Virus record (IMG/VR): IMGVR_UViG_3300021389_000093
Coordinates: 1-31,369 of that record
Length of the DNA: 31,369 nucleotides
Strand: one strand, 5' to 3'
Source of the DNA: a virus
The notes under the pieces were generated by a model. The model had not been told where the DNA came from. It made no database searches and saw only the letters and a program-made list of their open reading frames with translations. A program made the translations under genes and the position numbers. This document shows, in pieces, positions 3,425-24,705 of this stretch; the first letter of the stretch is position 1; each line of letters opens with the position of its first letter.

Positions 3425-3459
3425 GTAGCCTTATCGTTGTTTGGATACCTTATAGGTAT

Positions 3460-5685
3460 TTATTTTTTATTTGGTTTCTTCATTAGGCCGCCTTTAGCAA
3501 ATCCACCACTAAATTTCTTTCCTGGTGTATAACTTTTAACTTTACTAGCTGTAAAATCATTAGCAGATTTTTTTGCTTCTTGTCGTTGTTTTAAAGCACT
3601 CTTATAACCTGTTTGACCTGCTGACTTTTCGTTACTATCTTTACGTCCTGTAGTAGCTACACCTTTTGTTGCAACTGCTGATTGAGCTGCTGTAACTTTA
3701 TTACTATCGCTTTCACGTTTTTGTTCAGCTGCTATTTTTTTCTTTTGCGTATCTGATAATTTTATACTACCACCGCCAGAAGTTGTAGAAGTAGGAGTTA
3801 TCTCTATTTCACTTCTAAGTTTTTTATTATTTGCATCTATAGCTGCTTTAAGTTCATCTTTTTTAGATTGAGGCATGTTCTGTAAGTCAGCCACACTATG
3901 AAAACCATTACCTCTAGTTCCTTCCACATCATCAAGAAAACCTTTACCCATGATCTGATTTACTAATGTTATAGTATAACCTTCGCCATTTTGAGTGTCA
4001 GCAAAAGCTTTTTGATCTTCAGTCATATTAGCTTTATAAGACTCTCCAGCTTTAACTGCAGATGCAGCTGACACTGTATCACCAATTAAGTTTGCTATAT
4101 TTTCCATAGCTTTAATTTTATTAACTGTTGCTTTTCTTTCCATCTTTTGACCAATAATCATAGCTGGACCCCACCCTGGAATAGCAACACCTAAACCTTT
4201 AGCTAAACCACTTATTTTTTCTTGGGGTTTAGATAACTCTTTCATGTAAGCATCAAAGTCTTTTGGGTTAGACCAATCTAATTGTTCAGTTGCTTGGACT
4301 CTCCAACCTTTTTCAACGTAAGGTGTAGACATTTCAGTACCACCTATACCATCCATATTATCTTTATCTCTAGTAGGTTCTAATTCAGGCACACAGCTAT
4401 TTGATTCTTCATCATATACTGTACCTGGAGCACATACTGGAGTTGTAGAAGCTACAGGAGCTACAGGAGCTTTTTCTACTTCTTCAGGCGATTTAGGTAC
4501 ACCTGGACCTTGATAGAAGTAAGATCCACCTGGAATACCATACATAGAAGATATAGATGTAGGTGAAGTAATATAAGATTGATTTTGAGTATTAGTTGTA
4601 TTTAAACTATTAGGTTGAATTGTTGTACCTAAACCTGTCATAGATAGTGGATCTAAGTAAGTACCCTCAGCAGCCTTAATTGGTGCTTGATTGGTTACTG
4701 GATTAGTTGTTTGAGCAGGAGCATTCTGTGCTTGCATTTGTGTTGGTTGATTAGTAGCTGGAGTACGATTAATAGTAATGCCACGTTTAGCTAACTCATC
4801 CATAATTCCAGGATTGTTCTTAGTCATCTGCATAAACTGACCAATAACTTGATCTACACGAGTTGGATCATTGTAAGGAGATTGAGCCATACCACCAGTA
4901 GCAAAACCTACAGTCATGCCACTTTCGTTTAACTTTTTATTTACTAAAGGATCATTCATGGCAGTGTAAGCCATCTTATCCATAAGACCGCCATTAGCTA
5001 CACCAGTCCTCATCATCTGTTCAAGACCAGCTAGATCAGCTTCAGTCATACCTTTATTAGGTTCAACTGGCTCACCACCTATCCTACCATCTTGTTCCAT
5101 TTCACGTAAGCCCATCTTGGCTTCCATTCGCATATCTTCAAATACTTTTACACCAAAGTATCTTACGACATCAGCAGGTACTACATACTCACCTTCAGAC
5201 AACTGAGCTGGTATATCGTCACGGACTTCACTTGCAAGAGAACCTGAAGGTATTTCGTTACCTGATACAGGATCACGATTCATTCCGTCATCTGCAATAC
5301 CGCCTTCTTCAAACATACTCATTTGTCTGTTCATCGTACTTCCACCTTTTGCCATTCCTAATTTTTCTTTTGTAGCACCACCATCTTTACTACGATTAAT
5401 AGCTGCATTTACAGCAGACTCTATATTCTTATACCTTGGAAACTTAATTCCAGTTTCTTTTTCATACCTATATGCGGCATTCCAGGCTCTATCACTGTTG
5501 TCTTTACCACCAAGAAATACAGGCTCTTTAGTTTCTTTATCATACCAAATAGTAGGTATGTTCCAAGCACTACCTTCAGGTGAAGGTTCAGAGGCTAAAT
5601 ATTCTGTAGCTTTCATACCACCTACAGTATCTATAGGTTCATGTTTTTCTGGATCAAACGGTTCAATGTTTAACTTTTTATCCAT
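3460..5685 (-). CDS. Large putative virion protein (marine phage family)
   Basis: A 741-aa protein between the portal/small gene and the scaffold. Residues about 40-110 hold a compact domain (IPTIWYDKETKEPVFLGGKD, then RYEKETGIKFPRYKNIESA). Residues about 160-205 carry DDIPAQLSEGEYVVPADVVR and later DGRIGGEPV, which I remember from uncharacterised structural proteins of many marine podoviruses and cyanophages. The middle is Asn/Gln/Thr/Pro-rich and probably disordered, a short hydrophobic stretch lies near GLAKGLGVAIPGWGPAMIIG, and the C-terminus is Lys-rich and ends GGFAKGGLMKKPNKK. This could be an ejected internal protein, but no enzymatic motif is visible. Function is not established. Confidence 0.66.
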   Translation of the reverse strand: MDKKLNIEPFDPEKHEPIDTVGGMKATEYLASEPSPEGSAWNIPTIWYDKETKEPVFLGGKDNSDRAWNAAYRYEKETGIKFPRYKNIESAVNAAINRSKDGGATKEKLGMAKGGSTMNRQMSMFEEGGIADDGMNRDPVSGNEIPSGSLASEVRDDIPAQLSEGEYVVPADVVRYFGVKVFEDMRMEAKMGLREMEQDGRIGGEPVEPNKGMTEADLAGLEQMMRTGVANGGLMDKMAYTAMNDPLVNKKLNESGMTVGFATGGMAQSPYNDPTRVDQVIGQFMQMTKNNPGIMDELAKRGITINRTPATNQPTQMQAQNAPAQTTNPVTNQAPIKAAEGTYLDPLSMTGLGTTIQPNSLNTTNTQNQSYITSPTSISSMYGIPGGSYFYQGPGVPKSPEEVEKAPVAPVASTTPVCAPGTVYDEESNSCVPELEPTRDKDNMDGIGGTEMSTPYVEKGWRVQATEQLDWSNPKDFDAYMKELSKPQEKISGLAKGLGVAIPGWGPAMIIGQKMERKATVNKIKAMENIANLIGDTVSAASAVKAGESYKANMTEDQKAFADTQNGEGYTITLVNQIMGKGFLDDVEGTRGNGFHSVADLQNMPQSKKDELKAAIDANNKKLRSEIEITPTSTTSGGGSIKLSDTQKKKIAAEQKRESDSNKVTAAQSAVATKGVATTGRKDSNEKSAGQTGYKSALKQRQEAKKSANDFTASKVKSYTPGKKFSGGFAKGGLMKKPNKK

Positions 5686-5869: not shown

Positions 5870-7971
5870 GCAGCACCTTGTCCAGTATTAGCTGAGAACC
5901 CAGGTTCACCTGGAGTAGGCACTGAGCCTGTCCCTATAGTACCGCCACCAGCTCCTGTAGGATCTCCTGCTTGTGCCCCTGCTGGACCACCTTGAGGCTG
6001 TCCTGGAGCTTGTGGTTGAGGCTCAGGAGGATTAGCTTCCTGCCACTTCTTAAGCATCTCTGCTTGTACTGTAGCATCAGACATTGAATTAACTAATTTA
6101 TCAGGATCAAGTTCCATAGACTTAGCTATCTCACGAATAATATAATCCATCTTAGCAAACGGGGCTAGTACTGGGTTTTGTACAACTTGTAAGAACTGCA
6201 TTAGTCGTTGACTACGTACTTCATTAGCCATTAAGCTTTCTGTACCACGAGCCTTAACATCAAGATCACCTTTGATATCTTCATCATAATCAAACTGCAT
6301 ATTGAAGTTAAAGAATGCTTTAGCTAGAGGGCCAAGTAGGTAGTCATCTACATTCTTAACTACATTACGAATACTTCCGTTAGCCGCAGACATAAGCATT
6401 GAGATACCAGAAGCTGTACGACCTACACCTGATACACCTGTTTGACCATGTGCAAAAGAAGGAAAACCTGTTGATTCATCTGACAGTACACGAGCTTTGT
6501 CAAACATCTGCATGTTTTCATTAGAAACATTCGGAAACTTAGTTCCAAAGATAGCCTGTCCAGGTGCACCTCCCTGTCTCCTAAACACTTTGCCAGGGTA
6601 AACAGATAGGTCTTGGCCAGGAGTAAGGTTAGTTTCATCAACCTCTATGATCATATTACCAGATAATGCAGCATTGTCAACAGCCATTCTCATGAAACCA
6701 TTCATAAGAGTTTGAGTATCATCCATATTTTCTGCAATACCTACACCAAATAAACTATAAGGACTTACTTCGTAAGGTACAGCATAGTATGGTATAAGTG
6801 TAGGTGTAAACGGATTCATTACTAGACGTAACACTTGACCGTTACAAATCCATATGTTTACTGAGACTTGATCTAAATCTTTAAGGTCACTTGGTATATC
6901 TACATCATGTCCTTCTAGGACTTCTGTATCTACATTACCCCAAAATTCTAAGACTTCATAACGTTCTGCTTTAGCTTCGTTAGAGTCATCTTCCATAGCC
7001 TGTTCCCACCACTCTTTAGTGTAGGACTCACCCATGTTTACTGCTGTATCTATAGCATTTTTACGGAAGAAAGGTCTACGTTTAAGTGCACGTATTTGAG
7101 TACGTGACATCTTATGACGTTCTATTATATATTCTGCTTCATCCATATTAGCTGCATCTGGGTCAGGATAAAAATTCCATATAGATACAGATGAGGTTTG
7201 AGGTACTGTTTTAATTAGAGGTGTATATTCACCTTCTTCGTATTTAGGGTATTCTTTATCTACAGCAAATGGGCCTTTCATAACTCCTGTACCAAATAAA
7301 GCACATTCAAAGGCGGCAACTCTTAGTTGTTTGTTTGCATTAGATTCTTCTAACTGATCATGGATTTTCTTTTCCATTTTCTTTGCAGAAATCATAGCAG
7401 GGTGTATAGTAATCTCAGTAGCAGTTCTACCGTTACCTTCTTCAAGTATATCAGCTACAGGTGCTAATTTACTTTTAGAACCTGCTAAACGTTCTTGTAA
7501 ATCTATTACAGTTTCACCTGGACGTAACTGCATATCTTCTGCACCAAACTCTTCTTTGGCTTTACGCATATCATCATTAGATTCAAAGAATACTGAATCA
7601 GCCACACCTTCAGGTAGAGTGGTAGGATCAACTGTTACTGGAAACTTACTGTTACCAAATAGTACATCTACTATCTGACCATAAGCAGCTAATACTTTAG
7701 TCTTAGTAACTTTGACAAATACCCTAGACTTTTCTGTAGAAGTAAACTGTACATCTGGTCCATATAAACCACGATAATTACGATAGGCTTGTACCCAACG
7801 TTTTTCTTCAGTCTCACGAGCCGTGGAAGCTTTAGTATAATGATCTTGCACTAAACCAACTACAGTTCCTGAAAGTGGATCAGAATAATTATCTTCATCC
7901 ATGTCTTCTATAGCATTAGCCTCTACGGAGTCCATTGCCATTTCATTTTCAAAGAATTCATCTTCTTCCAT
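5866..7971 (-). CDS. Portal protein
   Basis: A 701-aa protein directly after the large terminase gene, in the order TerL-portal-scaffold-capsid. The N-terminus is very acidic; then come RWVQAYRNYRGLYGPDVQF, the long segment through WNFYPDPDAANMDEAEYIIERH, and an alpha-helical middle typical of the stem and wing of P22-like portal rings. The length is close to P22 gp1 and larger than T7-type portals. Residues from about 645 onward are a Pro/Gln/Gly/Ala-rich tail that is probably disordered or forms a barrel extension. AAGGA precedes the ATG by a few nt. Confidence 0.85.
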   Translation of the reverse strand: MEEDEFFENEMAMDSVEANAIEDMDEDNYSDPLSGTVVGLVQDHYTKASTARETEEKRWVQAYRNYRGLYGPDVQFTSTEKSRVFVKVTKTKVLAAYGQIVDVLFGNSKFPVTVDPTTLPEGVADSVFFESNDDMRKAKEEFGAEDMQLRPGETVIDLQERLAGSKSKLAPVADILEEGNGRTATEITIHPAMISAKKMEKKIHDQLEESNANKQLRVAAFECALFGTGVMKGPFAVDKEYPKYEEGEYTPLIKTVPQTSSVSIWNFYPDPDAANMDEAEYIIERHKMSRTQIRALKRRPFFRKNAIDTAVNMGESYTKEWWEQAMEDDSNEAKAERYEVLEFWGNVDTEVLEGHDVDIPSDLKDLDQVSVNIWICNGQVLRLVMNPFTPTLIPYYAVPYEVSPYSLFGVGIAENMDDTQTLMNGFMRMAVDNAALSGNMIIEVDETNLTPGQDLSVYPGKVFRRQGGAPGQAIFGTKFPNVSNENMQMFDKARVLSDESTGFPSFAHGQTGVSGVGRTASGISMLMSAANGSIRNVVKNVDDYLLGPLAKAFFNFNMQFDYDEDIKGDLDVKARGTESLMANEVRSQRLMQFLQVVQNPVLAPFAKMDYIIREIAKSMELDPDKLVNSMSDATVQAEMLKKWQEANPPEPQPQAPGQPQGGPAGAQAGDPTGAGGGTIGTGSVPTPGEPGFSANTGQGAA

Positions 7972-10797: not shown

Positions 10798-12027
10798 TTA
10801 CTTGTATTTGCCTTTTACACCAAACTTTTTCTTATGTTCAGCAATAGACTCTTCTTTTAGTCGAGTGGTATATAGTTTGTCTTTAAATGTAAACGTTGCT
10901 TTCTTTGCTTTACGATTACGTTTAAATGCTGCACCAAAAGACTCATCACTAACTGGACCAGCAGCGGGTTTCTTTAAGTTAATACCTTTACCTTTTTCAA
11001 TTTCAGTTTTAGAAACTCTAGCTCTAGGGCTTGGTTTAACTTCAACATCACCTTTTTTGACTTTCTTTTTACCGCCAAGAGCCATTATTGTTCCAGCAAC
11101 ACCAGAACCTAACCCTATTATCAACGGGAGATTAGACTGCCTACCTTTTGAAGTAGAAGTTTTGGAAGTCTTAGAACCTGGTTTAGTAGGTTTAGCACCT
11201 TTACCCTTAGAGTTAGAAGTCTTCGAAGTAGAGGAAGGCTTAGGAGCTGGATTAGCTTTAGAAGTTTTATTATTAGAAGTTTTAGAGTTCTTAGCAAGAG
11301 GTTTAACAAGTTTAGCATTAGCTCCTTTATTCGTAGAAGTCTTTGAACTAGTAGATGGCCTAGGTGCTGCATTTGCCTTAGATCCTTTACTGGTAGAAGT
11401 CTTTGAAGTTTTTGAAGGTGGCTTAGTAGGTTTAGCACCTGCACCTTTACTATCAGAAGTCTTAGAGTTTTTACTTAAAGGCTTAGTAGGTTTAGCACCT
11501 GCACCTTTACTATCAGAAGTCTTAGAGTTTTTACTTAAAGGCTTAGTAGGTTTAGCTTGAGAACCTTTACTATCAGAAGTCTTAGAGTTTTTACTTAAAG
11601 GCTTAGTAGGTTTAGCACCTGCACCTTTACTATCAGAAGTCTTAGAGTTTTTACTTAAAGGCTTAGTAGGTTTAGCTTGAGAACCTTTACTATCAGAAGT
11701 CTTAGAGTTTTTACTTAAAGGCTTAGTAGGTTTAGCACCTGCACCTTTACTATCAGAAGTCTTAGAATTAGTAGAAGGTCTTGCAGCTGGATTAGCTCTT
11801 TTACCTTTAATATTAGATGTATTAGAACTTGAAGAAGGCATTCTACCTTTTCCACCCCTAGTTCTAACTGTTCTTAAATTAGATAATTGTTTAGGAGTAC
11901 CTGCAACTACTTTACCTTTAAATCCTTTAGGTGCTTTTTTAGCTCCCATTGCTATTGCTCGTTGTAATAATCTTTTACTTACAAACCTAAGTCCTATGCC
12001 CCCAAGGACGTATATTACTGGTAACAT
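10798..12027 (-). CDS. Lys/Ser/Pro-rich tandem-repeat protein with one membrane-like segment
   Basis: A 409-aa very basic protein. Residues 1-28 (MLPVIYVLGGIGLRFVSKRL onward) are hydrophobic/amphipathic. Residues 70-289 are eleven 20-aa repeats with consensus KTSDSKGAGAKPTKPLSKNS, the composition of histone H1 tails and surely disordered. Residues 300-319 (PLIIGLGSGVAGTIMALGG region) form a glycine-zipper-like hydrophobic segment, followed by a basic C-terminal domain (ATFTFKDKLYTTRLKEES). AAGGA lies before the ATG. It stands between the lysis and packaging blocks. DNA condensation, an ejected virion protein or a membrane role are all possible; none is shown. I do not recognise a named family. 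Confidence 0.7.
   Translation of the reverse strand: MLPVIYVLGGIGLRFVSKRLLQRAIAMGAKKAPKGFKGKVVAGTPKQLSNLRTVRTRGGKGRMPSSSSNTSNIKGKRANPAARPSTNSKTSDSKGAGAKPTKPLSKNSKTSDSKGSQAKPTKPLSKNSKTSDSKGAGAKPTKPLSKNSKTSDSKGSQAKPTKPLSKNSKTSDSKGAGAKPTKPLSKNSKTSDSKGAGAKPTKPPSKTSKTSTSKGSKANAAPRPSTSSKTSTNKGANAKLVKPLAKNSKTSNNKTSKANPAPKPSSTSKTSNSKGKGAKPTKPGSKTSKTSTSKGRQSNLPLIIGLGSGVAGTIMALGGKKKVKKGDVEVKPSPRARVSKTEIEKGKGINLKKPAAGPVSDESFGAAFKRNRKAKKATFTFKDKLYTTRLKEESIAEHKKKFGVKGKYK
11161..11820 (-). repeat. Eleven tandem 60-bp coding repeats
   Basis: The period is exactly 60 bp over 660 bp, each unit ending (plus strand) in AGAAGT. Five central units (11461-11760) are nearly identical and alternate as A-B-A-B-A. 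The three A units are identical to one another, as are the two B units. A and B differ only in an 8-bp stretch that changes Ala-Gly-Ala to Ser-Gln-Ala. Flanking units are more diverged, as in a minisatellite that grows from its centre. Confidence 0.95.
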
Positions 12028-14109: not shown

Positions 14110-14438
14110 TATCCGTTGTTACCTTTCACTTCTTTCTTGCTCATGTTGGTTACTCCGAAGAATACTCCAACTATACCAGCAACTGATAAAAAATAAATAG
14201 ATGCCATTGATCCTATGATATCAGCAGCTTTATCTGCACCGATCATAGAACACAATAGGACAAGGAATGGGTATGCTAACATTCCTGCTAGACAAAACCA
14301 TGCCATTCTTCTTTGAGCATCACGTTGGGCATCTTCATCATCTAATCGTCTACGTCGATCTTCTAGTGCTAATGAATCCCACTCAGACTTATCTATAAGT
14401 CCATTACCATCTGTATCTGCATCTTGAAAGTTAGTCAT
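14109..14438 (-). CDS. EF-hand membrane protein of the lysis cassette
   Basis: A 109-aa protein. Residues 8-19 (DTDGNGLIDKSE) are a complete canonical EF-hand loop with ligands at positions 1, 3, 5, 9 and 12 and Gly at 6, predicted to bind calcium. A short Arg/Asp-rich linker (LEDRRRRLDDEDAQRDAQRR) follows, then two hydrophobic helices at about 45-65 and 77-97. It overlaps its neighbours (ATGA upstream, TAATG downstream) and stands directly before the holin. It may be an accessory holin or regulator. Ca2+ control of lysis is inference. Confidence 0.75.
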   Translation of the reverse strand: MTNFQDADTDGNGLIDKSEWDSLALEDRRRRLDDEDAQRDAQRRMAWFCLAGMLAYPFLVLLCSMIGADKAADIIGSMASIYFLSVAGIVGVFFGVTNMSKKEVKGNNG

Positions 14439-14689
14439 TGTTCCCAGTCTCTTTTACGCTTAGGGTCTAGTACGTCTCTAGCTAATAGCTTACCTTCGAG
14501 ATACATACACCTTTCTATTTTATCTAGGGTTTCCCAATTACCTGTATGTTGATAATATGCTTCTCTAATATAGAAAACATCTGATCTTGGTATATGAACC
14601 CTACGGAGTTTACCTTCGTTCTGATCAGCAAGTGCCTTATAGAACTCTTCAAGTACCCTCTCACTGGAATACATTTTAGGTTTAGACAT
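14435..14689 (-). CDS. Hypothetical protein, first gene of the leftward block
   Basis: An 84-aa protein: MYSSERVLEEFYKALADQNE, then LRRVHIPRSDVFYIREAYYQ and a charged end. I remember similar short proteins in marine phages, none with a known role. The ATG (14689) has no Shine-Dalgarno; instead it lies 5 nt after the -10 of a strong promoter, so the message may begin at or next to the start codon. An ATG at 14674 is a possible alternative start but also lacks a ribosome site. Confidence 0.62.
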   Translation of the reverse strand: MSKPKMYSSERVLEEFYKALADQNEGKLRRVHIPRSDVFYIREAYYQHTGNWETLDKIERCMYLEGKLLARDVLDPKRKRDWEQ

Positions 14690-14767: not shown

Positions 14768-14813
14768 CTTATCGTTACTAGTATAGAGTAAGTATTGCTT
14801 ATCGTTACTAGTA
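14768..14813. repeat. Pair of 16-bp direct repeats, 30 bp apart
   Basis: CTTATCGTTACTAGTA occurs at 14768-14783 and again at 14798-14813. The 30-bp offset is close to three helical turns, so both copies face the same side of the DNA. They lie between the two leftward promoters. Confidence 0.85.
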
Positions 14814-14820
14814 AGAGGGG

Positions 14821-14917
14821 TACTTTAAGTATACTTTAAGTATTTACTTATATTATTATTATTAGTAGATGATAATACTTATAGTTACTTTAAGTAACCT
14901 AAAGTATACTTTAAGTA
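14821..14917. repeat. Cluster of four TACTTTAAGTA palindromes
   Basis: Exact copies lie at 14821-14831, 14832-14842 (head to tail), 14886-14896 (extended to a 13-bp TTACTTTAAGTAA) and 14907-14917. A near copy, TACTTAAAGTT, is at 14986-14996. The copy at 14907-14917 covers the predicted start of the consensus promoter at 14919-14946. This looks like an operator array. Confidence 0.85.
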
Positions 14918-14918
14918 T

Positions 14919-14946
14919 ATTATATCACATTATTAAACTATGTCAA
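14919..14946 (-). promoter_or_regulatory. Full-consensus sigma70 promoter, leftward
   Basis: On the minus strand TTGACA (14946-14941) and TATAAT (14924-14919) are 16 bp apart, and TGA stands before the -10 (extended -10). Both hexamers are perfect. The predicted start, near 14912, lies inside a TACTTTAAGTA palindrome. It would transcribe the leftward block with a leader of about 220 nt. Confidence 0.8.
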
Positions 14947-15233
14947 TGGACAAATTGTAGCAGCTTAGTTATTTCTTGTCGAGGGTACTTAAAGTTACTC
15001 AAAGAATTCTTAACGGCGGCGGACTAACTACTATTAGGCTCTGAGAAGCTTAATAAGCCTTACTGACAGCTTGTCTTATGTCGTCAGGTTAAGATATACC
15101 CGGCGACTACCTAAAGGCTCTCTATGGAGCTGTATAATGTATTAACATAATATTCAACATAATGGTCTATCATTATCTCCAATATCAATATAATGATAAA
15201 AAGGATAAGGTATACCCCCAGTTCCAGGATAAT

Positions 15234-15246
15234 GTTATAATATAAC
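15234..15246. repeat. 13-bp palindrome GTTATA-N-TATAAC, copy 1
   Basis: GTTATA-a-TATAAC is at 15234-15246; a second copy, GTTATA-c-TATAAC, is at 15472-15484. TATAAC is the -10 of the shared promoter family, but neither copy has a -35 at the right distance on either strand. Confidence 0.5.
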
Positions 15247-15281
15247 GTATTTACATAATGTAGTTAACAGCTTTAAAAATA

Positions 15282-15354
15282 CCCCCCGCTGTCATTGGCT
15301 GTATACGCTACCTAGTACCCCCCGTCTGCCCCATGTCCCCCCTCTTTGTTCCCC
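15282..15354 (-). other. C-run tract: G-quadruplex / i-motif candidate
   Basis: On the plus strand C-runs lie at 15282-15287 (6), 15318-15323 (6), 15329-15332 (4), 15337-15342 (6) and 15351-15354 (4). On the minus strand the last four give four G-runs of at least 4 with loops of 8, 4 and 5 nt, a good G-quadruplex pattern. A further C5 is at 15215-15219. The surroundings are very AT-rich. Confidence 0.65.
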
Positions 15355-15402
15355 TTACGTTCTTATCAAGTAAATTGTTATGCTTATCTTTATGCTAACT
15401 TA

Positions 15403-15429
15403 TTGAAATCATTAGATTATTTATATAAT
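15403..15429 (+). promoter_or_regulatory. Possible rightward early promoter
   Basis: TTGAAA (15403-15408) and TATAAT (15424-15429) are 15 bp apart, slightly short. It points toward the early genes and would start near 15436, upstream of a possible 24-codon reading frame. The AT-rich context makes chance matches likely. Confidence 0.35.
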
Positions 15430-15457
15430 TATGAATTATCTATAAGGTAAATACACT

Positions 15458-15532
15458 ATGAAATACGTTATGTTATACTATAACACCTCTCAACAGCAAT
15501 TTAGAAGTACAACTTCTATACCATCTATTTAA
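15458..15532 (+). CDS. Possible 24-aa leader peptide
   Basis: An ATG at 15458 opens a 24-codon frame encoding MKYVMLYYNTSQQQFRSTTS then IPSI, ending in TAA. AAGG lies about 10 nt upstream and a promoter-like sequence lies before that. It contains a 17-bp inverted repeat. There is no similarity I recognise; it may be only noncoding sequence. Confidence 0.22.
   Translation: MKYVMLYYNTSQQQFRSTTSIPSI
15502..15518. repeat. 17-bp inverted repeat
   Basis: TAGAAGT-aca-ACTTCTA is a perfect 7-bp inverted repeat with a 3-bp centre. Its size and symmetry are those of a dimeric repressor site. No copy was noticed elsewhere in the window. Confidence 0.5.
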
Positions 15533-15535
15533 TTT

Positions 15536-15612
15536 AATATTAAACCATACCCCTAGTAAATCATAATAATAGTTCAATGCTAAACCATAAAGTAGTTCAA
15601 CATTAAACTAAA
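15536..15612. repeat. Three degenerate 14-bp direct repeats
   Basis: AATATTAAACCATA (15536-15549), AATGCTAAACCATA (15576-15589, exactly 40 bp on) and AACATTAAACTAAA (15599-15612) share AAYRYTAAAC. They lie in very AT-rich DNA and may be origin iterons or chance similarity. Confidence 0.42.
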
Positions 15613-15907
15613 TTTTATTTCCAGTTCATAATGATATTATAATAAAATAATATTAAATTTGTTTTCCTTTGTTTTCAATGACTTACAAGAGATTTTATAA
15701 AAATATTACAAAATATGTAAATTTCTTGTTGATTTATTAAATTATATCATTAGTTTGATATTCAGAAATTGATTATAAATATTTTCGGAGTGAGATTATA
15801 TTTTAGATTTTAGTAGTTTTTTAAACTATGTGCTATTTGAAATTTACCTAATCCAATAGGTTTTTATATTAAGGTTTTAGGGTCTTAATAATTGGAAAGG
15901 TTGCAGA

Positions 15908-15918
15908 TACTTAAAGTA
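15908..15918. repeat. Solitary TACTTAAAGTA palindrome
   Basis: An exact copy of the 11-bp palindrome, 450 bp before the first rightward gene. TTGCAG (15901-15906, just before it) could be a weak -35, which would put the palindrome between -35 and -10. That promoter is speculative. Confidence 0.6.
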
Positions 15919-16277
15919 AAAATATTCAGTAATGAATATAGAAACTTAACTAGGAAAGTATCCTATAAAATATTAATTGCCTAGGCTACTCAGTTTTTTA
16001 ATCTGACGAATTAAAATGCTTGGTATGATCCGAATAGAGAGAAAGCATTAAACGTACCTATATATAATAGGGGTCTTTAATGTTAGTAAAAGTAAAAGGG
16101 ATATTCCTAAGGGAAAAGAATTAAACATCTATAATTGGTGAAGGTATTAGACGACAGTCTTTCTTGAGTGAACAAAATTGAAGATATTGACAGCAATTAT
16201 TAATAAAATTTCAATCGGTTATGCTAATTGGTTTTATTAGATGGTGTTTATTATTATTTTAAAATTATTAAAAATTT

Positions 16278-16306
16278 ATTAAGCGGTTTTAATCACGCCG
16301 CTTAAT
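16278..16306. terminator. 9-bp-stem hairpin before the first rightward gene
   Basis: ATTAAGCGG (16278-16286) pairs with CCGCTTAAT (16298-16306) around an 11-nt loop. In the leftward direction it is followed by AAATTTTTAATAATTTT, so it could stop leftward RNA. In the rightward direction it would be a leader structure about 58 nt before the ATG. Confidence 0.45.
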
Positions 16307-16363
16307 TGGTGTTTAATAATAATATTAAGCAAAATGAAATAATATAAAAAGGAAAGAAATATT

Positions 16364-16903
16364 ATGACAAATACAGTAACAAAAATTGAAGCAAATTTTG
16401 GTCGTTCACTTGGTAATGGTGCTAATATGGGTAAGTATACTCTTGAAGCATTTAAAACAGTATTAGACCAAAGAGATACAACCATATTAATAGGTCTAAT
16501 TAACCAAGCTAAAAAGCGGGGTGATACACTTGCAGAACGTGCAATAAAATCCATGATCAATATAGTTTATGAAGGTGCAAAGTTTAAAACCGAAAAGAAT
16601 AAAAAGAATGGAAAATCTCACACTAAAATTATTATCAAGGGATTGAAAGCTAATGAAAAATCTATTGCTATCATGGAAGATTTGGTTGAAGCAAAAATTT
16701 CAATGCGTGGTAGTAAATGGAAAGATGCTTTTACAACTAAAACAGTAAAAAAATCTGCACCTCTAAACGTAAAATCTTTTATTGAAACTTGTTCTAAGCG
16801 TTCAACAGATGAATTGAAAGAGATGCAAAAAATAATCAAGGCCGCAATTAAGCATCAACAAAATAATGTAGTTGTTGAATTACCTAATAAAAAGGCCGCA
16901 TAA
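16364..16903 (+). CDS. First rightward gene: Lys-rich hypothetical protein
   Basis: A 179-aa, strongly basic and mostly helical protein: EANFGRSLGNGANMGKYTLE, then DTTILIGLINQAKKRGDTLA and IIKGLKANEKSIAIMEDLVE, ending PNKKAA. AAGGAAAG lies 8 nt before the ATG. It is AT-richer than the structural genes. As first gene after the control region and alone before a hairpin, it is a likely early, highly expressed protein, perhaps for host takeover or DNA binding. I do not recognise its family. Confidence 0.72.
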   Translation: MTNTVTKIEANFGRSLGNGANMGKYTLEAFKTVLDQRDTTILIGLINQAKKRGDTLAERAIKSMINIVYEGAKFKTEKNKKNGKSHTKIIIKGLKANEKSIAIMEDLVEAKISMRGSKWKDAFTTKTVKKSAPLNVKSFIETCSKRSTDELKEMQKIIKAAIKHQQNNVVVELPNKKAA

Positions 16904-16924
16904 TCATAAATGAATATTACATGA

Positions 16925-16949
16925 TACCCCATGCTAATTGCGTGGGGTA
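16925..16949 (+). terminator. Strong hairpin after the first rightward gene
   Basis: TACCCCATGC (16925-16934) pairs with GCGTGGGGTA (16940-16949) over 10 pairs (one G-U) around a 5-nt loop. Only AATTGTT follows, so termination would be partial. It probably separates the first gene from the next ones. Confidence 0.55.
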
Positions 16950-16982
16950 AATTGTTATGTCCATTTATTGAAAGGAATTATT

Positions 16983-17330
16983 ATGGATAAATTTAGGGTC
17001 TACAGTGATATCGCAAGCATATGCCTAGAGATAGGGGGGAATTTTTTTCCAGTCCCTAACGAGATCGGCAGTGATGGTAAGTTCGATGTGGTGGTAGTCG
17101 ATGCCAAAACAGATGGGGTTAAAGGTAAGTTAGGTATAGAATGGCAATTCTATAATACCCTGCAAATCAATCAGGATAATTGTTACCTACACTCTAGCGA
17201 TTGTGCTAGGCTAGATGAGAGTGGGGGTTTACCTTCACATCATGCTAGGTTACATCAATTTAAGCAGGGTAATTACGAAGTATATCGTGATGGGGGTAAT
17301 TTTTTATTCGTTAGATTTGAAAGGAGTTAA
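16983..17330 (+). CDS. Hypothetical early protein
   Basis: A 115-aa protein starting MDKFRVYSDIASICLEIGGN. I use the ATG at 16983 because GAAAGGAATT precedes it; an in-frame ATG at 16938 falls inside the hairpin. The middle (IEWQFYNTLQINQDNCYLHS) and the end (NYEVYRDGGNFLFVRFERS) look like a small beta-rich fold. No family recognised. AAGGAG of the next gene lies inside its last codons. Confidence 0.62.
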   Translation: MDKFRVYSDIASICLEIGGNFFPVPNEIGSDGKFDVVVVDAKTDGVKGKLGIEWQFYNTLQINQDNCYLHSSDCARLDESGGLPSHHARLHQFKQGNYEVYRDGGNFLFVRFERS

Positions 17331-17331
17331 T

Positions 17332-17595
17332 ATGAGTAAACAAAAATATGATTTTGAATTTGATTTTTTATCTGATGGTGGTTTCTTTGGGCGTATGCTT
17401 TATAAAAATAGGATGTGTGACGTTCATTTTTTTAAAGGTTGGATAGATGGTAGAATAGAATATGATTACGTCTGTCGTTATGGTAAGGGCAATAACTATG
17501 AGTGGGGACTTCTCTCTGATCATAAAGGCTATCAAGAAAAAGATAGTGTTAATTTATATAGTGCATTTTTAAAATGGAAAGGGAATATAATATGA
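17332..17595 (+). CDS. Hypothetical early protein
   Basis: An 87-aa protein starting MSKQKYDFEFDFLSDGGFFG, rich in aromatic residues (WIDGRIEYDYVCRYGKGNNY). The ATG at 17332 has a perfect AAGGAG 6 nt upstream and begins one base after the previous stop; upstream in-frame starts are not supported. It overlaps the next small gene as ATGA. No family recognised. Confidence 0.62.
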   Translation: MSKQKYDFEFDFLSDGGFFGRMLYKNRMCDVHFFKGWIDGRIEYDYVCRYGKGNNYEWGLLSDHKGYQEKDSVNLYSAFLKWKGNII

Positions 17596-17717
17596 GTAGT
17601 AGACAAAGGCGTATTAACGCAGAAAATAGAGCAAATAGAAACGCAATATTTGCGATTGTTTTTCTTTTAGTAATCACGTTTATTATAGGCGTGATGGTTG
17701 GAGGTGAATTGTTATGA
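17592..17717 (+). CDS. 41-aa single-pass membrane protein
   Basis: The peptide MSSRQRRINAENRANRNAIF is followed by AIVFLLVITFIIGVMVGGEL and a last L. The basic N-terminal tail and a hydrophobic helix of about 20 residues predict an inner-membrane protein with its N-terminus inside. It is fixed in the operon by ATGA overlaps at both ends (17592-17595 and 17714-17717). Function unknown; small early membrane proteins of phages often act on host processes. Confidence 0.6.
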   Translation: MSSRQRRINAENRANRNAIFAIVFLLVITFIIGVMVGGELL

Positions 17718-18004
17718 GTACAGACGTTTTGCTAGGTGAATGGCAAGGTAATGTTACCTATAACCTTTCGCCTATGATGCGTGAGGTTTTTGTAATACCA
17801 TTGCGTGATATGTATGGTATGACAGGTTATCAAATTTCACATTGTCTTAAAGTAAGTATTCAAAGCATGGTGTTTAAGCATGAGAAACTAGAGAAACTCA
17901 ATCCCTCAAATGGTTGGGGTAGCTATGATGTTTTGTTTAATTTTATATTGGATTTAAAACGTGCTTGTGATGAGTACCCAAATGAAAGGTTAAAGGTATA
18001 TTGA
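17714..18004 (+). CDS. Hypothetical early protein
   Basis: A 96-aa protein: MSTDVLLGEWQGNVTYNLSP, then VIPLRDMYGMTGYQISHCLK and a C-terminal helix (FNFILDLKRACDEYPNERLK). The central segment could be a small HTH-like helical unit, but this is weak. GGAGG lies 9 nt before the ATG, which overlaps the upstream stop. No family recognised. Confidence 0.6.
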   Translation: MSTDVLLGEWQGNVTYNLSPMMREVFVIPLRDMYGMTGYQISHCLKVSIQSMVFKHEKLEKLNPSNGWGSYDVLFNFILDLKRACDEYPNERLKVY

Positions 18005-18005
18005 T

Positions 18006-18371
18006 ATGATGAATTATATTTTAAGTGGTTGGATTGAAACTGAATTTGAACTGGAAAAGTTTCATATAGAAGGTCTTGATCTAGAAGCATGTGTGGCACA
18101 ACTAGCTCATGATTATGATGAGTTAGGTGATGTAGATATGCGAGTAGATGGTGGCTATGGTACGCCTGATTATGATGTTACATCTAAGGTTATTGAAATG
18201 GTGTGTGAACCTACCAAAAAACCAACCTATACTAAAGAGGAGTTGATACTAATAGGTAGGTGGAATGTTATTTGTAATTCACCTAGACCTGAGCTTCCTA
18301 TCGGTGAAACAGAAACCATACCTATAAATATAAATGAATTTGTATGGCTTAAAAAAGAAGGGTTCGTATGA
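18006..18371 (+). CDS. Hypothetical acidic early protein
   Basis: A 121-aa acidic protein: WIETEFELEKFHIEGLDLEA, then LGDVDMRVDGGYGTPDYDVT and PRPELPIGETETIPININEF. AAAGG lies 9 nt before the ATG at 18006; an ATG one codon later is also possible. It overlaps the next gene as ATGA. No family recognised. Confidence 0.6.
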   Translation: MMNYILSGWIETEFELEKFHIEGLDLEACVAQLAHDYDELGDVDMRVDGGYGTPDYDVTSKVIEMVCEPTKKPTYTKEELILIGRWNVICNSPRPELPIGETETIPININEFVWLKKEGFV

Positions 18372-18610
18372 TGAATAGGGATAGCTTCAATCAATGGTTA
18401 GATACATGCCCCACTGATGGTTGGCGTGTGGTGTCGGATACCTACGGCTTCATTCATGTGGCCTATGGTATAGAAGAAGATCATGAATGGGTGGAGGAAT
18501 CCTCATGGTCTCAATTTAAGTTAGCAACACTATGGTTTTTGTTTGGTGGTGTTGTGTCTTTGGGCGTGTTCAGTATGTTTATATCGTTCATGTCTTGGTG
18601 GTTAATGTAA
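18368..18610 (+). CDS. Hypothetical protein with a C-terminal membrane helix
   Basis: An 80-aa protein. Residues 1-47 are soluble and acidic (NQWLDTCPTDGWRVVSDTYG), and residues 51-79 are strongly hydrophobic (LATLWFLFGGVVSLGVFSMF, then ISFMSWWLM), predicting one or two membrane helices at the very end, as in tail-anchored proteins. It overlaps its upstream neighbour by ATGA. No family recognised. Confidence 0.6.
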   Translation: MMNRDSFNQWLDTCPTDGWRVVSDTYGFIHVAYGIEEDHEWVEESSWSQFKLATLWFLFGGVVSLGVFSMFISFMSWWLM

Positions 18611-18627
18611 CAATGAAAGGAATAAAT

Positions 18628-20310
18628 ATGAGTTACGAAATTAGAATTGTGAATAGGGAGTTAGCTAATAACTCTCAATACATTCCTGAGAATGTAGAAC
18701 ACTTGGCGTTGATACCTGACTACAAGCCATTCAGTGTTGATGATGATGACATGATCATCGAGTTCAATACACCTACAGGTGCTTTCCTTGAGGTGAATGA
18801 TGTGAAGTTCAGGGTTAGCTTTGGACATGACCCACAGTCTAATGGCTTTGTGGTCAAGCGTATCTTAGATACAGTACACAGTGACCCTGTATTACAAGCA
18901 TGGGGGGACTGGACATTACCTACACGTAGACCTGATGACAGTTTACGTCAATGGTTTCTGGATGAGATAGGTTATCTAAGTAACCCTGAGCTGAGAACTA
19001 ATGCTTTACCTCATAGGTTGTCTTTGTTTGCACCTATGCGTTCTAAGAGAATACATGGGTACATCAGTATATATCAGAACAGTGACAAGTATATAGCTGA
19101 TCTGCATACACCTATGAAGCCTGGAAAAGCTATCTCTACTATAGCCCCAGAGTTAGACAACAAGACTGTTGATAGGTTAGTCACTGACTTTCTTGATGCC
19201 TTTGCACACAGAGAGTACACAGTCAAAACGTCTAGTAAACCTGATGACTTTCGTAAGGTGTATACAGGTAAGACAGTCGGTACACAGAATGTAAATACTA
19301 CAGGTACTTACAAGTCACTAGCTTCTAGTTGTATGCGGTATACCTTTGATGATGGTGATGGCCCGATGAACCTAGCTATACATCCTACTGAGGTTTATGG
19401 CTCTGGTGATTTCGATATCATATGGGTTGAAGATGCTAAGGGTTTCATCGGTGGTCGTGTGGTTGTCTACATGAAACATGACTCAGGTATACCACAACCA
19501 TCTTATATCTATGGGGCTTGTCAACAAGCATTAGATATGCTAAAAGATTATCTGGACAGTATAGATGCCTGTGATATCTATGACTCTGATTGGTCAGGTG
19601 CTAGGCTATTAGCTATCAAAGACTATGATACTCAGGCTTACATCGGCCCATATCTAGACTTAGAGCCTAGAACTTTAGACCCCCATATATTACCTGATGG
19701 TACTAAAGACAGTGAAGGTAATGCCAACACCAAAGAATACTTAGTCATAGGTTGTGGTGAACTTGATGGCAATGGTTACCAAGGTATCTACAGTGATGAT
19801 GTCAATCGTTGTTACAACTGTGAAGAGTATGTGCATGAAGATGATACACGTCACTCTGAGTACACAGGTAATGTATACTGTGACTGTTGCTTCAATGATG
19901 AACACTTCTATTGTGATTGGTCTGATGAATACTACCATAATGATCAACGCATAAGTGTCTGGTACATCAATAGTGAGGGTAATAAAAGATGCTATGATGT
20001 TGCAGAAGGTTGTGATGGTTATGTATGGTGTGAACGTGACTGTGAGTATTGGGATGCTGACGAAGCATACTACATAGAGTATGAAGATAACTGGGTATCA
20101 CCTACTACATTCGAAGAAGACTACTTTGTATCTGATTGGGATGGACGTATCTACCCTAACGATCAGATGGTCAGTACTATTGAAGATGAGATTGTATCTA
20201 AATATGAGATAGATGATCACAATAGTTCTTCAGATGAATATAAATATAAAAGAAATGACTTCGGTATATACATGAAGTCTTATGAAAAGGAAAACAACAA
20301 TGAAAAATAA
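18628..20310 (+). CDS. 560-aa acidic Cys-rich protein of unknown function
   Basis: The ATG at 18628 has GAAAGG 7 nt upstream. The middle (SCMRYTFDDGDGPMNLAIHP, then VYGSGDFDIIWVEDAKGFIG and YIGPYLDLEPRTL) resembles uncharacterised proteins I remember from other podoviruses. Residues about 375-475 hold eleven Cys (GCGE, CYNC, YCDCC, YCDW, RCYD, GCDG, WCERDC) in patterns suggesting repeated zinc-binding knuckles, mixed with Asp/Glu/Tyr-rich stretches. The C-terminus is acidic and disordered. It overlaps the peptidase-like gene by 11 nt. The strong acidity allows a DNA-mimic or protein-binding role, but that is only a possibility. Confidence 0.7.
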   Translation: MSYEIRIVNRELANNSQYIPENVEHLALIPDYKPFSVDDDDMIIEFNTPTGAFLEVNDVKFRVSFGHDPQSNGFVVKRILDTVHSDPVLQAWGDWTLPTRRPDDSLRQWFLDEIGYLSNPELRTNALPHRLSLFAPMRSKRIHGYISIYQNSDKYIADLHTPMKPGKAISTIAPELDNKTVDRLVTDFLDAFAHREYTVKTSSKPDDFRKVYTGKTVGTQNVNTTGTYKSLASSCMRYTFDDGDGPMNLAIHPTEVYGSGDFDIIWVEDAKGFIGGRVVVYMKHDSGIPQPSYIYGACQQALDMLKDYLDSIDACDIYDSDWSGARLLAIKDYDTQAYIGPYLDLEPRTLDPHILPDGTKDSEGNANTKEYLVIGCGELDGNGYQGIYSDDVNRCYNCEEYVHEDDTRHSEYTGNVYCDCCFNDEHFYCDWSDEYYHNDQRISVWYINSEGNKRCYDVAEGCDGYVWCERDCEYWDADEAYYIEYEDNWVSPTTFEEDYFVSDWDGRIYPNDQMVSTIEDEIVSKYEIDDHNSSSDEYKYKRNDFGIYMKSYEKENNNEK

Positions 20311-21250
20311 TTTAGTGGACATGTTACAATACATGCGTCCTGAGGGTGCTAAGGCACAGAAAGAATTCTGTCTTGAGTATCTCGAACCTGTGTTCGGTAA
20401 GCCTGATGAGTATGGTAATTACATACATCAAGTAGGTGTTAAGCCACGTCTTTGCTTTACTGCACATCACGACACAGTACACAAAGCTGATGGTATGCAG
20501 AAAGTTGTTGTGTCTAACAACATCATATCTGTAGCTGACCCCAAGGTATCAAGCTGTCTAGGTGCTGACTGTACCACAGGCATATGGCTCATACTAAAGA
20601 TGATTGATGCAGGTGTAGAGGGTACATACGTAGTACATGCAGCTGAGGAGATTGGTTGTCAGGGTAGTAAAGCATTGGTCTATAGTAATCCAGTATGGTT
20701 AGATTACACTGATGCTGTTATATCTTTCGACAGGTATGGCACTAAGTCTGTGATCACACACCAGATGGGTATGCGTACTGCATCTGACAAGTTTGCAAAG
20801 TCTTTTGCTACAGCCTTGGCCTTGCCACAGTTAGTATCTGATGATGGTGGTTCTTATACAGATAGTAATGAGTATGCTGACATAGTACCTGAGTGTACTA
20901 ACATTAGTGTGGGTTACTACAATCAACACACAGTCAAAGAGACACAAGACATGTCCTATGCAGAGCTATTGCTTAGTAGTTTATTACAAGCTGACTGGAC
21001 AAAGATTGTTATTGATCGTGACCCTGCTGTACAAGAGTGTATCTATACCAAGTATTCTCTTAATGATGACTACTACTACTCTCACAACCCTGATGCTACA
21101 GAGGAGCTTGTCAATCTAGTATTAGATTATCCTGATAGGATTGCTGATATGCTTGCTACCTATGGTTATACACCAGAAGAAGTTATGAAAGAGTGTAATA
21201 TATCCCCTGACTACTTCGTCAATGACTATGTAGCTAATCGTTATATGTGA
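20300..21250 (+). CDS. Zinc peptidase-like protein (M20/M28/M42 fold)
   Basis: A 316-aa protein with the full metal-site order of co-catalytic zinc peptidases: HxD in TAHHDTVH (H56, D58), bridging Asp in LGADCTTG (D90), EE in HAAEEIGCQG (E116 general base, E117 ligand), Asp in ISFDRYG (D144) and a late His in YYNQHTVKE (H210). Such enzymes remove N-terminal residues or cleave amides of small substrates. The C-terminal 90 residues are outside the family. I start at the ATG at 20300 (AAGG 9 nt upstream) rather than 20282. Substrate unknown. Confidence 0.78.
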   Translation: MKNNLVDMLQYMRPEGAKAQKEFCLEYLEPVFGKPDEYGNYIHQVGVKPRLCFTAHHDTVHKADGMQKVVVSNNIISVADPKVSSCLGADCTTGIWLILKMIDAGVEGTYVVHAAEEIGCQGSKALVYSNPVWLDYTDAVISFDRYGTKSVITHQMGMRTASDKFAKSFATALALPQLVSDDGGSYTDSNEYADIVPECTNISVGYYNQHTVKETQDMSYAELLLSSLLQADWTKIVIDRDPAVQECIYTKYSLNDDYYYSHNPDATEELVNLVLDYPDRIADMLATYGYTPEEVMKECNISPDYFVNDYVANRYM

Positions 21251-21299
21251 CACGTTGTCACAGTGGGTTGATTAATCTCAGATAATATGTATTTTATAG

Positions 21300-21374
21300 T
21301 ACTTAAAGTATACTTAAGGTTACTTTAAGTTTACTATTAATATCTATTATTAATTAATAATAATACTTAAAGTA
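21300..21374. repeat. TACTTAAAGTA sites and 18-bp palindrome upstream of the integrase
   Basis: Exact copies lie at 21300-21310 and 21364-21374, near copies at 21311-21321 (TACTTAAGGTT) and 21321-21331 (TACTTTAAGTT). Between them TATTATTAATTAATAATA (21345-21362) is a perfect palindrome. The last copy abuts the integrase Shine-Dalgarno, so binding there could block expression. TATAGT (21295-21300) may be a weak -10. Confidence 0.82.
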
Positions 21375-21383
21375 AGGAATAAC

Positions 21384-22472
21384 ATGAAGTATACAACTAA
21401 GACTAGTCGTAAGAACGGCAGTACGTCTTGGGTATTTAGACCACCTCAAGATGTAGTGTCAGCAGGTATAGTTAAGAGCCAGACATTTAGAGATGGTCGT
21501 ACTGCAAGGGTAGAGATACCAAAACTATTAGATAAGATAGATGCCTTTCGTAAAGGTGATTTAGTAGCAGGTGATATAGGTAGGTTGTCCAACCTTAATC
21601 AGATTGTTGGACATTACTTCAAGACTAAACACTTTAATTCTCTGTCGTTAAACACTCAAAATAATTATACCCATAACCTTAAATGTATTTGTCGTACAGA
21701 AATATATGGCAAAGAGTTTGGTAGTTTTAGAATTGATAGGATAACTACACCAGTATGTACTGAAGCCTACGATACATGGGAAGAAGATGTTAGTACTAAT
21801 ACAGCTAATGAATACAGTAGGTCTCTATCTATGATCATGAATTACTGTCGTTCATTAAACGTTGTTAATAACAACCCTGTAACTCATGTTAACAAGAGAA
21901 CTCATGAGACACGTTCAACTACATGGACTAACGAAAATGTTGAGAAGTTCTGTGATGTAGCCTTCTCTGACTTTAAGTTTAGAAACATAGGTCTATGTGT
22001 ACTCATGGCTTACGAGTGGGCGCAACGTCCTATTGATATTTACACTCTCAAGTGGGACAACATACATTTTGATATCGACATGGTAAAGATACGTCAGAGT
22101 AAACGTGGTGCTACTGTTGAGCTACCATTAGAAGAACCTCTGACATCCATGTTACTTGATCAGAAGAATGACTGGGACTTCCAAGAATATGTAGTACCCT
22201 TTCAGAGGCCTTCAGATGGGGCATACAGGCCGTTCAACCATTCCTCTGCAGGTATACTAGTCAGACAGATAAAGGAGCTGTCAGGGCTACCCCCTGAGCT
22301 ACGTGTGGGTGATCTTAGGAAGACAGCCATCAACCAAATGATTGACAGTGAGATAGACCACCTTGCAATCATGTCTGTTACAGGGCATAAGAATGTGGCA
22401 AGTCTTAACCCATATGTTAAACACAATTTAAAAGCGGCTAAGTCCGCATTAAGTAGGAGAAGTAAGGAATGA
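21384..22472 (+). CDS. int: Tyrosine recombinase / integrase
   Basis: A 362-aa recombinase. Residues about 70-165 are the SAM-like core-binding domain. The catalytic domain shows R215 (EWAQRPIDIYTLKW), K240 (QSKRG), R312 (VGDLRKT), H335 (VTGHKN) and nucleophile Y344 (NPYVKH). In box II (HxxR) the usual His is replaced by Gly309, which may lower or change activity. AAGGAAT precedes the ATG. Regulatory palindromes lie just upstream and the PAPS-reductase-like gene overlaps its stop by ATGA. It could integrate the phage or resolve genome forms; no attachment site was recognised. Confidence 0.9.
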   Translation: MKYTTKTSRKNGSTSWVFRPPQDVVSAGIVKSQTFRDGRTARVEIPKLLDKIDAFRKGDLVAGDIGRLSNLNQIVGHYFKTKHFNSLSLNTQNNYTHNLKCICRTEIYGKEFGSFRIDRITTPVCTEAYDTWEEDVSTNTANEYSRSLSMIMNYCRSLNVVNNNPVTHVNKRTHETRSTTWTNENVEKFCDVAFSDFKFRNIGLCVLMAYEWAQRPIDIYTLKWDNIHFDIDMVKIRQSKRGATVELPLEEPLTSMLLDQKNDWDFQEYVVPFQRPSDGAYRPFNHSSAGILVRQIKELSGLPPELRVGDLRKTAINQMIDSEIDHLAIMSVTGHKNVASLNPYVKHNLKAAKSALSRRSKE

Positions 22473-24261: not shown

Positions 24262-24493
24262 ATTTGAGAAGGATTATTCTGTCGTCACTAGTATGGATGA
24301 ACAGAATAACTTTGATGATATCGAAATGTATCTTGAGAACAACGGCGTTGTTTTCTTGAGACAGTACGTAGAAGAAATAGACACACATCAGGTGATTGAA
24401 ATATCCTATAAACAATTACTTGACTTGTGGTCTTCTATGAGGCAGACTGAAGGCCTATTTAAATTAGAACTAATCGAAAAGGAAAAGCGATGA
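24248..24493 (+). CDS. Hypothetical acidic protein
   Basis: An 81-aa acidic protein: MFTVEFEKDYSVVTSMDEQN, then GVVFLRQYVEEIDTHQVIEI. GGGAGG lies 9 nt before the ATG, which is inside the last codons of thyX (14-nt overlap). The end overlaps the wHTH gene as ATGA. No family recognised. Confidence 0.6.
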   Translation: MFTVEFEKDYSVVTSMDEQNNFDDIEMYLENNGVVFLRQYVEEIDTHQVIEISYKQLLDLWSSMRQTEGLFKLELIEKEKR

Positions 24494-24705
24494 AGAAATC
24501 ACAACATCAATTAATAATCAATCACTTGAAAAATACAAAGGGTATCACAGTACGTGAGGCTATGATTGAGTACCATGTCAGTAGTCTTAGTAAACGTATA
24601 CAAGAACTACGTGAGAGAGGTTTTGATATACTCAGTATAAAAAAGAAACATCCTGTTACAGGTCAACGATATGTACGTTATGTATTACAAGGTGATGAGA
24701 CATGA
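24490..24705 (+). CDS. Winged helix-turn-helix protein
   Basis: A 71-aa protein made only of a wHTH: HQLIINHLKNTKGITVREAM, then HVSSLSKRIQELRERGFDIL as recognition helix and wing lead-in, and TGQRYVRYVL as the wing. Such domains are common phage DNA-binding regulators. It is the only obvious small regulator-like protein seen in the window and so a candidate reader of the TACTTTAAGTA sites, which is unproven. AAGGAAAAGCG precedes the ATG. Confidence 0.75.
   Translation: MKKSQHQLIINHLKNTKGITVREAMIEYHVSSLSKRIQELRERGFDILSIKKKHPVTGQRYVRYVLQGDET

Follow-up and report, generated by a model that had tools for sequence, protein, structure and literature searches.

In lambdoid phages, several related 17-bp dyads at the operators OL and OR, read by CI and Cro, stand at two promoters that drive two lytic gene blocks and overlap the promoters or starts that they control. 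Ribbon-helix-helix (RHH) dimers, such as Arc, MetJ and CopG, use operators made of short dyads that are repeated about every helical turn, with one small dimer per turn. The arrays bound by Apl of phage 186 and Cox of P2 occupy two loci, one near the integrase gene (int), with roughly helical phase and probably cooperative binding (PMC7498355). Here, the element in question is an 11-bp palindrome, TACTTWAAGTA, a perfect 5+1+5 dyad that recurs in a 31.4-kb fragment of a marine podovirus (IMG/VR virus record IMGVR_UViG_3300021389_000093, positions 1 to 31,369; this whole stretch is called the window). The window's late genes run leftward and its early and replication genes run rightward, with a 1.7-kb non-coding leader between them. 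The evidence favours, with fair probability, reading the dyads as repressor operators that coordinate a leftward promoter for lysis and morphogenesis genes with a rightward promoter for int, nucleotide-metabolism and replication genes.

The window contains seven exact copies of the palindrome, all of them at the positions given in an initial annotation of its sequence, against a chance expectation of 0.15 (standard deviation 0.46; both strands, dinucleotide shuffles); none of 100 shuffles reached seven. Four copies have T as their centre base and three have A, the latter being exact on the minus strand. The three near copies previously listed at 14986, 21311 and 21321 are present as well, together with weaker copies at 14896 and 14996. 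The further statement that no copy lies in coding DNA holds for the exact copies with A or T centres, none of which falls inside a recognised window gene; it must be restricted to those centres because a G-centred cousin, TACTTGAAGTA, sits at 1325 inside the capsid gene. The isolated copy at 15908 is the weakest case, as several close relatives lack it or have it in degenerate form, and no clear promoter accompanies it.

The copies are positioned with respect to promoters. One covers the predicted start of a leftward promoter with full consensus (TTGACA-16-TATAAT, minus strand), and another shares bases with the beginning of the int ribosome site (AAGGA); both placements had been proposed and both are borne out. 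When late arrays were aligned on the dyad nearest the -10 box, about half of those scanned had a full TTGACA-N16-18-TATAAT promoter, and the dyad usually begins 1-15 bp past the -10 box. In one relative (L013), an additional dyad fills the spacer between the -35 and -10 boxes. The array before int, called array 2, has the geometry TTGATT-16-TATTTT-4-dyad, which is matched in L003, L096 (TTGACT) and L052 (TTGACA).

Further, the arrangement is conserved well beyond the window. The loose pattern TACTTWAAGTAN{0,30}TACTTWAAGTA, which holds the motif alone and no protein information, was scanned over IMG/VR and returned at least 119 stretches, many of them homologous to the window. A tight tandem form, with a gap of 0-3 bp between copies, returned 82 stretches, and among the 80 loci listed, 69 code for homologues of window proteins; as a control, the pattern with its letters reversed gave 0 stretches in IMG/VR. 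In 257 Gb of prokaryote genomes, the tight form occurred in 8 stretches, none labelled alphaproteobacterial. The initial annotation had called for counts of the 11-mer in relatives, and had named many copies inside genes elsewhere or absence from close relatives as grounds for giving up its proposal. All 50 exact copies in 12 contigs (533,583 bp) are intergenic; each contig has one to three clusters of them, which cover 5,880 bp in total, and arrays occupy both slots across relatives. These cluster intervals were drawn around the arrays; what stands independently of that choice is the position of the two recurrent clusters in homologous slots of different lineages: one before g84, between a promoter and the first leftward virion/lysis gene, and one after an M20 peptidase gene, just downstream of the rightward promoter.

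The distances from one copy to the next cluster at 11-14, 20-21, 44-46, 52-56 and 64 bp, which fits what cooperative binding in helical phase would give. Among close relatives, operator copies shift and re-form and spacers drift; for example, the near copy at 14986 is exact in L030/L048, and the window differs from L003/L004 by copies that were gained or have moved. Moreover, in Cobavirinae-like phages whose primase-helicase is 33-37% identical to that of the window (L054, L016, L019, L040 and L123), TACTTWAAGTA arrays adjoin leftward genes, and L204, L225 and L240 carry the TACTANTAGTA form. Because the two-locus layout, with one of its promoters late, is conserved across a large phage family, coordinate control of the two promoters is very likely, and a switch protein very probably docks at the palindrome.

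The initial annotation had proposed a switch that joins late transcription to integration. The same palindrome does occur at two promoters, one of them late, in a conserved layout; the second promoter, in contrast, is not integrase-specific, because array 2 persists before PAPS-reductase, small secreted-protein or tRNA-Arg genes. In particular, relatives with no int downstream keep array 2 in its slot after the M20 gene, followed by a small open reading frame (orf) and PAPS reductase (L051, L074, L098, L110), by orf75 (L025, L081), by orf112 (L041) or by tRNA-Arg (L058, L124), and small secreted-protein genes are among those that follow it in relatives. The rightward promoter heads a block of int, ThyX, primase-helicase and polymerase genes, and the supposed connection with integration is better understood as one with this replication block. 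A second dyad, GTGACANNNTGTCAC, begins exactly 53 bp before the first array 2 operator in int-positive (L003-L005) and int-less (L051, L074, L098, L110) relatives, with a variable centre. It is suggested to be an activator site, because several genomes with a consensus -35 box at the rightward promoter do without it. Separately, array 2 is directly followed by a tRNA-Arg (TCT) gene at L058:823-899, L052:7979-8055 and L124:1472-1548, and the tRNA-Arg of CRP-9 is at 6146-6222, with no annotated integrase there; in int-positive members, the tRNA-Arg after array 2 could be an attP marker.

Two rival explanations tie the dyads to recombination. If they were integrase arm-type sites, the main alternative in the initial annotation, the arm-binding domain of Int would bind repeats around attP and the second cluster would act as a remote enhancer. 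One array does lie directly upstream of int and its repeats are roughly helically spaced, but array 2 keeps its slot after the M20 gene with no int next to it (L051, L074, L098, L110, L025, L041), and CRP-9 and CRP-13 have arrays with no annotated int. Moreover, the units are perfect dyads rather than the non-palindromic sites of a monomeric arm-binding domain, in L232 a dyad with another centre precedes the same type of Int (51% identity), and the other array lies 6.4 kb away on a late promoter. Arm-type sites were rejected because arrays are present where no int follows, and their probability is put close to nil. A regulator of the recombination directionality factor (RDF) type, such as Apl or Cox, would be one small phage protein that acts on att and switch regions and serves both excision and transcription. 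The sites do occur at two places, the int region included, with a phase of roughly 10-11 bp, as for Apl (PMC7498355). However, Apl binds 6-bp direct repeats as a monomer (PMC7498355); the present units are palindromic 11-bp dyads, true palindromes whose 11-14 bp spacing fits one helical turn loosely, and the arrays remain where int does not follow. No helix-turn-helix (HTH) RDF heads the window's early operon, whose first protein, of 179 aa, has no HTH family or fold match. An RDF-type regulator is thus rated very unlikely.

The remaining rivals concern the host, replication and RNA. An alphaproteobacterial host factor might couple phage replication and late genes to the state of the host, for instance CtrA (TTAA-N7-TTAA) acting on pairs of copies spaced by 11 bp. 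Tandem copies at that spacing do form TTAA-N7-TTAA, and the search gave no conserved phage regulator; however, spacings of 12, 13 and 14 bp together outnumber 11 and break the CtrA pattern, and CtrA boxes were rejected as the unit on the ground that the spacing is not fixed at 11. The near absence of tandem dyads from the 257 Gb of prokaryote genomes leaves no visible host regulon on the tandem form, and CRP-9/13 (TACTANTAGTA) infect FZCC0023, as do CRP-1 and CRP-2, whose examined stretches gave no TACTNNNAGTA copy. Host control is accordingly unlikely, if less remote than the other alternatives. As replication origins, the dyads would be initiator sites (iterons) beside A/T-rich unwinding elements, with the sigma-70 promoter giving a priming transcript; array 2 dyads flank an A/T-rich segment of 30-45 bp and there are few such loci per genome. 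Against this stand the dyad within the core-promoter spacer of L013 and those right after the -10 box in many lineages, positions tuned to a promoter; no initiator protein was found, the replication genes being primase-helicase and polA, and an origin function is held to be very improbable. Lastly, palindromic copies in a 5' leader could pair with each other and set transcript fate. Leader folding z-scores of -2.7 and -2.0 are in line with such an RNA element, but repeated palindromes necessarily yield scores of this kind, there is no Rfam match, and copies upstream of the start (14986) or within a promoter (L013) are not transcribed from that promoter. An RNA element has the slightest chance of all.

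Under the preferred reading of the dyads as operators, a dimeric DNA-binding protein would repress two sigma-70 promoters simultaneously. Its dimers would occupy the 11-bp dyads at +1 and then, cooperatively, dyads lying roughly one, two, four, five or six turns of the helix further downstream, and the bound dimers would block or loop the promoter. The block between the loci, from 16364 to the M20 gene and transcribed from the long leader, would escape control and presumably be expressed first; the repressor would then hold back, or time, replication and virion genes together. The effect would be repression by a phage-encoded binder, and its purpose a lysis/lysogeny or early-to-late switch. 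Several observations weigh against this proposal. The window's own int promoter is weak by consensus; no repressor gene for the dyads was found in the window or its relatives; a gene-family intersection gave no DNA-binding family that every motif-bearing genome has and the controls lack; and the late leader RNA folds better than shuffles (z -2.7), which leaves room for a role at the RNA level. Moreover, the stretches examined of CRP-3, which belongs to the HMO-2011 group and is a proven lysogen (PMC6918029), contain no such array; lysogeny in the wider group therefore does not depend on it, and the array is one clade's solution rather than a universal one.

The search for the binding protein agrees with the earlier remark that the window holds no CI-like repressor: none was found there, nor a repressor gene next to the operators in relatives. 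The families found in every motif-bearing genome encode enzymes or structural proteins, and HTH proteins are present in only some of these genomes. The winged HTH protein suggested in the initial annotation (24490-24705, HTH_39) proved a poor candidate, since its distribution is limited to the closest clade and a close homologue is encoded by ICBM2, where the array is absent; an HTH protein of 120-240 aa common to G009, G010, G028 and G029 was rejected because the window lacks it. Several lineages conserve the first rightward early protein (16364-16903), and a Cobavirinae genome encodes a distant homologue of it. The AlphaFold model of the window protein is confident (pLDDT 82.6) but had no match at E<=0.001 in PDB or BFVD, and the first early genes of motif-bearing genomes are of at least two unrelated types; this protein was likewise rejected as the binder. 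The window proteins scanned gave no RHH match and relatives share no RHH protein, though fast-evolving small proteins could escape such a scan. Because 11-bp dyads repeated every 11-14 bp suit RHH dimers better than lambda-type HTH dimers, the binder may well be a small RHH-like or similar dimer. A Cro-like binder is possible because L014, a phage unrelated by gene content, has TACTTAAAGTA dyads where an HTH_3-like gene of Cro size has its promoter; this locus shares the dyad core and shows only that an HTH repressor may use the word.

Compared with the known systems, the window resembles the lambdoid arrangement in having several related dyads that overlap two lytic promoters or their starts. 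Unlike lambdoid operators, its dyads are 11 bp long, have no adjoining repressor gene and lie mostly at and after +1, and its promoters are 6.4 kb apart with a presumed early block between them. The two loci, with one near int, and the roughly helical phase recall Apl and Cox arrays, from which the window differs in its true palindromes, their persistence where int does not follow, and the lack of an RDF-like protein heading the early operon. Short tandem dyads at a spacing of about one turn are shared with RHH operators. The closest phages are the HMO-2011-type, CRP-9-type and Cobavirinae podoviruses (PMC9038755, PMC8528129), through virion genes, the variant array of CRP-9/13 and the late-promoter palindromes of CRP-5.

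HMO-2011-type phages are described as dominant and widespread in the ocean (PMC9038755). The capsid, portal and terminase of the window are 63-70% identical to HMO-2011-type proteins, placing its virion genes in that type, and its integrase is 34-35% identical to the HMO-2011 and CRP-345 homologues. Its primase-helicase is 66% identical to that of CRP-9; with HMO-2011 or CRP-345, the primase-helicase and polymerase gave no blastp match. By sequence similarity, the window is an HMO-2011-type virion module joined to a different replication module, a mix already described for marine contigs (PMC8528129).

Variant dyads occur in cultured phages. CRP-9 and CRP-13, grown on FZCC0023 and with no annotated integrase, have TACTNNNAGTA arrays at both loci (Table 1), and the early array of CRP-13 directly follows a TTGACA promoter. 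A single binder probably reads TACTNNNAGTA, because L232 mixes three TACTAATAGTA copies and one TACTTTAAGTA copy in a single array that precedes an Int with 51% identity to that of the window. In HMO-2011, the late leader holds CACTTAAGTG, and CRP-5 has TACTTTCAGTA right at a late TTGACA/TATACT promoter; both look like drifted versions of the dyad and are weaker evidence. Other multi-copy palindromes, largely in or near the early region, are GTCCAANNTTGGAC (6 copies in CRP-345, L009/L169) and AGTCCGNNNNCGGACT (5 copies in HMO-2011, L010/L170), and GTTTAANNTTAAAC is a palindrome in the CRP-9/13 leaders.

Table 1. Coordinates of the putative operators, promoter elements and genes (window positions unless a phage is named).
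Feature	Coordinates	Strand	Remark
g84, first gene of leftward lysis/morphogenesis block	14435..14689	-	
Putative operator, exact TACTTTAAGTA, late array	14821..14831		centre T
Putative operator, exact	14832..14842		centre T; abuts 14821 copy, 11-bp spacing; conserved in relatives
Putative operator, exact, late array	14886..14896		centre T
Degenerate copy	14896..14906		between two exact copies, 10-11 bp phase
Putative operator, exact	14907..14917		centre T; covers predicted +1 of leftward late promoter; same position in many lineages
-10 box TATAAT, leftward late promoter	14919..14924	-	12/12 consensus together with -35
-35 box TTGACA, leftward late promoter	14941..14946	-	16-bp spacer
Two near copies upstream of late promoter	14986..15006		first copy is exact TACTTAAAGTA in L030/L048
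Putative operator, exact, isolated	15908..15918		centre A; long non-coding leader; conservation not general
First rightward early gene, candidate regulator	16364..16903	+	179 aa, unknown family
M20/PepT-like peptidase gene	20300..21250	+	adjoins array 2 on its upstream side in most relatives
Second dyad GTGACANNNTGTCAC	21247..21261		straddles M20 gene stop, just upstream of int promoter
-35-like TTGATT, rightward int/replication promoter	21268..21273	+	
-10-like TATTTT, rightward int/replication promoter	21290..21295	+	
Putative operator, exact	21300..21310		centre A; covers predicted +1 of rightward promoter
Two near copies	21311..21331		10-11 bp phase
Spacer between operators	21332..21363		A/T-rich, partly self-complementary
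Putative operator, exact	21364..21374		centre A; abuts int ribosome site
Tyrosine integrase	21384..22472	+	first rightward-block gene in int-positive members
CRP-9 TACTNNNAGTA arrays	5188-5269 and 54973-55091		
CRP-13 TACTNNNAGTA arrays	3426-3533 and 54198-54348		

The HMO-2011-type members examined have no recognisable repressor. A conserved operator at two promoters gives a concrete handle on how their life cycle is chosen or timed: it could serve as bait for purifying the regulator, with the cultured phages CRP-9 and CRP-13 as test material, and the dyad word could sort uncultured phages by possible immunity type. A literature search for the words TACTTTAAGTA and TACTTAAAGTA found no paper that mentions either, and the terms promoter, palindrome and repressor are absent from the genome papers searched on these marine phage groups. 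More tentatively, a CI-less switch based on an operator code of its own, TACTNNNAGTA, might be common to marine phages with HMO-2011-type virion genes and Cobavirinae-like phages. Its repressor, of a new type, would control the replication and virion promoters together, and dyad variants would behave like immunity types and would have passed between lineages. This broader proposal is possible, with the odds somewhat against it.

Rfam and tRNA scans of the window were both empty. The late leader also contains a direct repeat, CTTATCGTTACTAGTA, in two copies (14769-14814), the second of which is missing from L030/L064/L048. In the divergent leader, a C-rich element, ACCCCCCGTCTGCCCCATGTCCCCCC, and its neighbours (about 15260-15345) look conserved at the same place in HMO-2011, CRP-1, -2, -207, -345, -603, -9 and -13. 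Elsewhere, positions 10798-12027 encode a protein with many lysine/serine/threonine-rich repeats of about 20 aa (60-bp DNA repeats), which seem variable among relatives.

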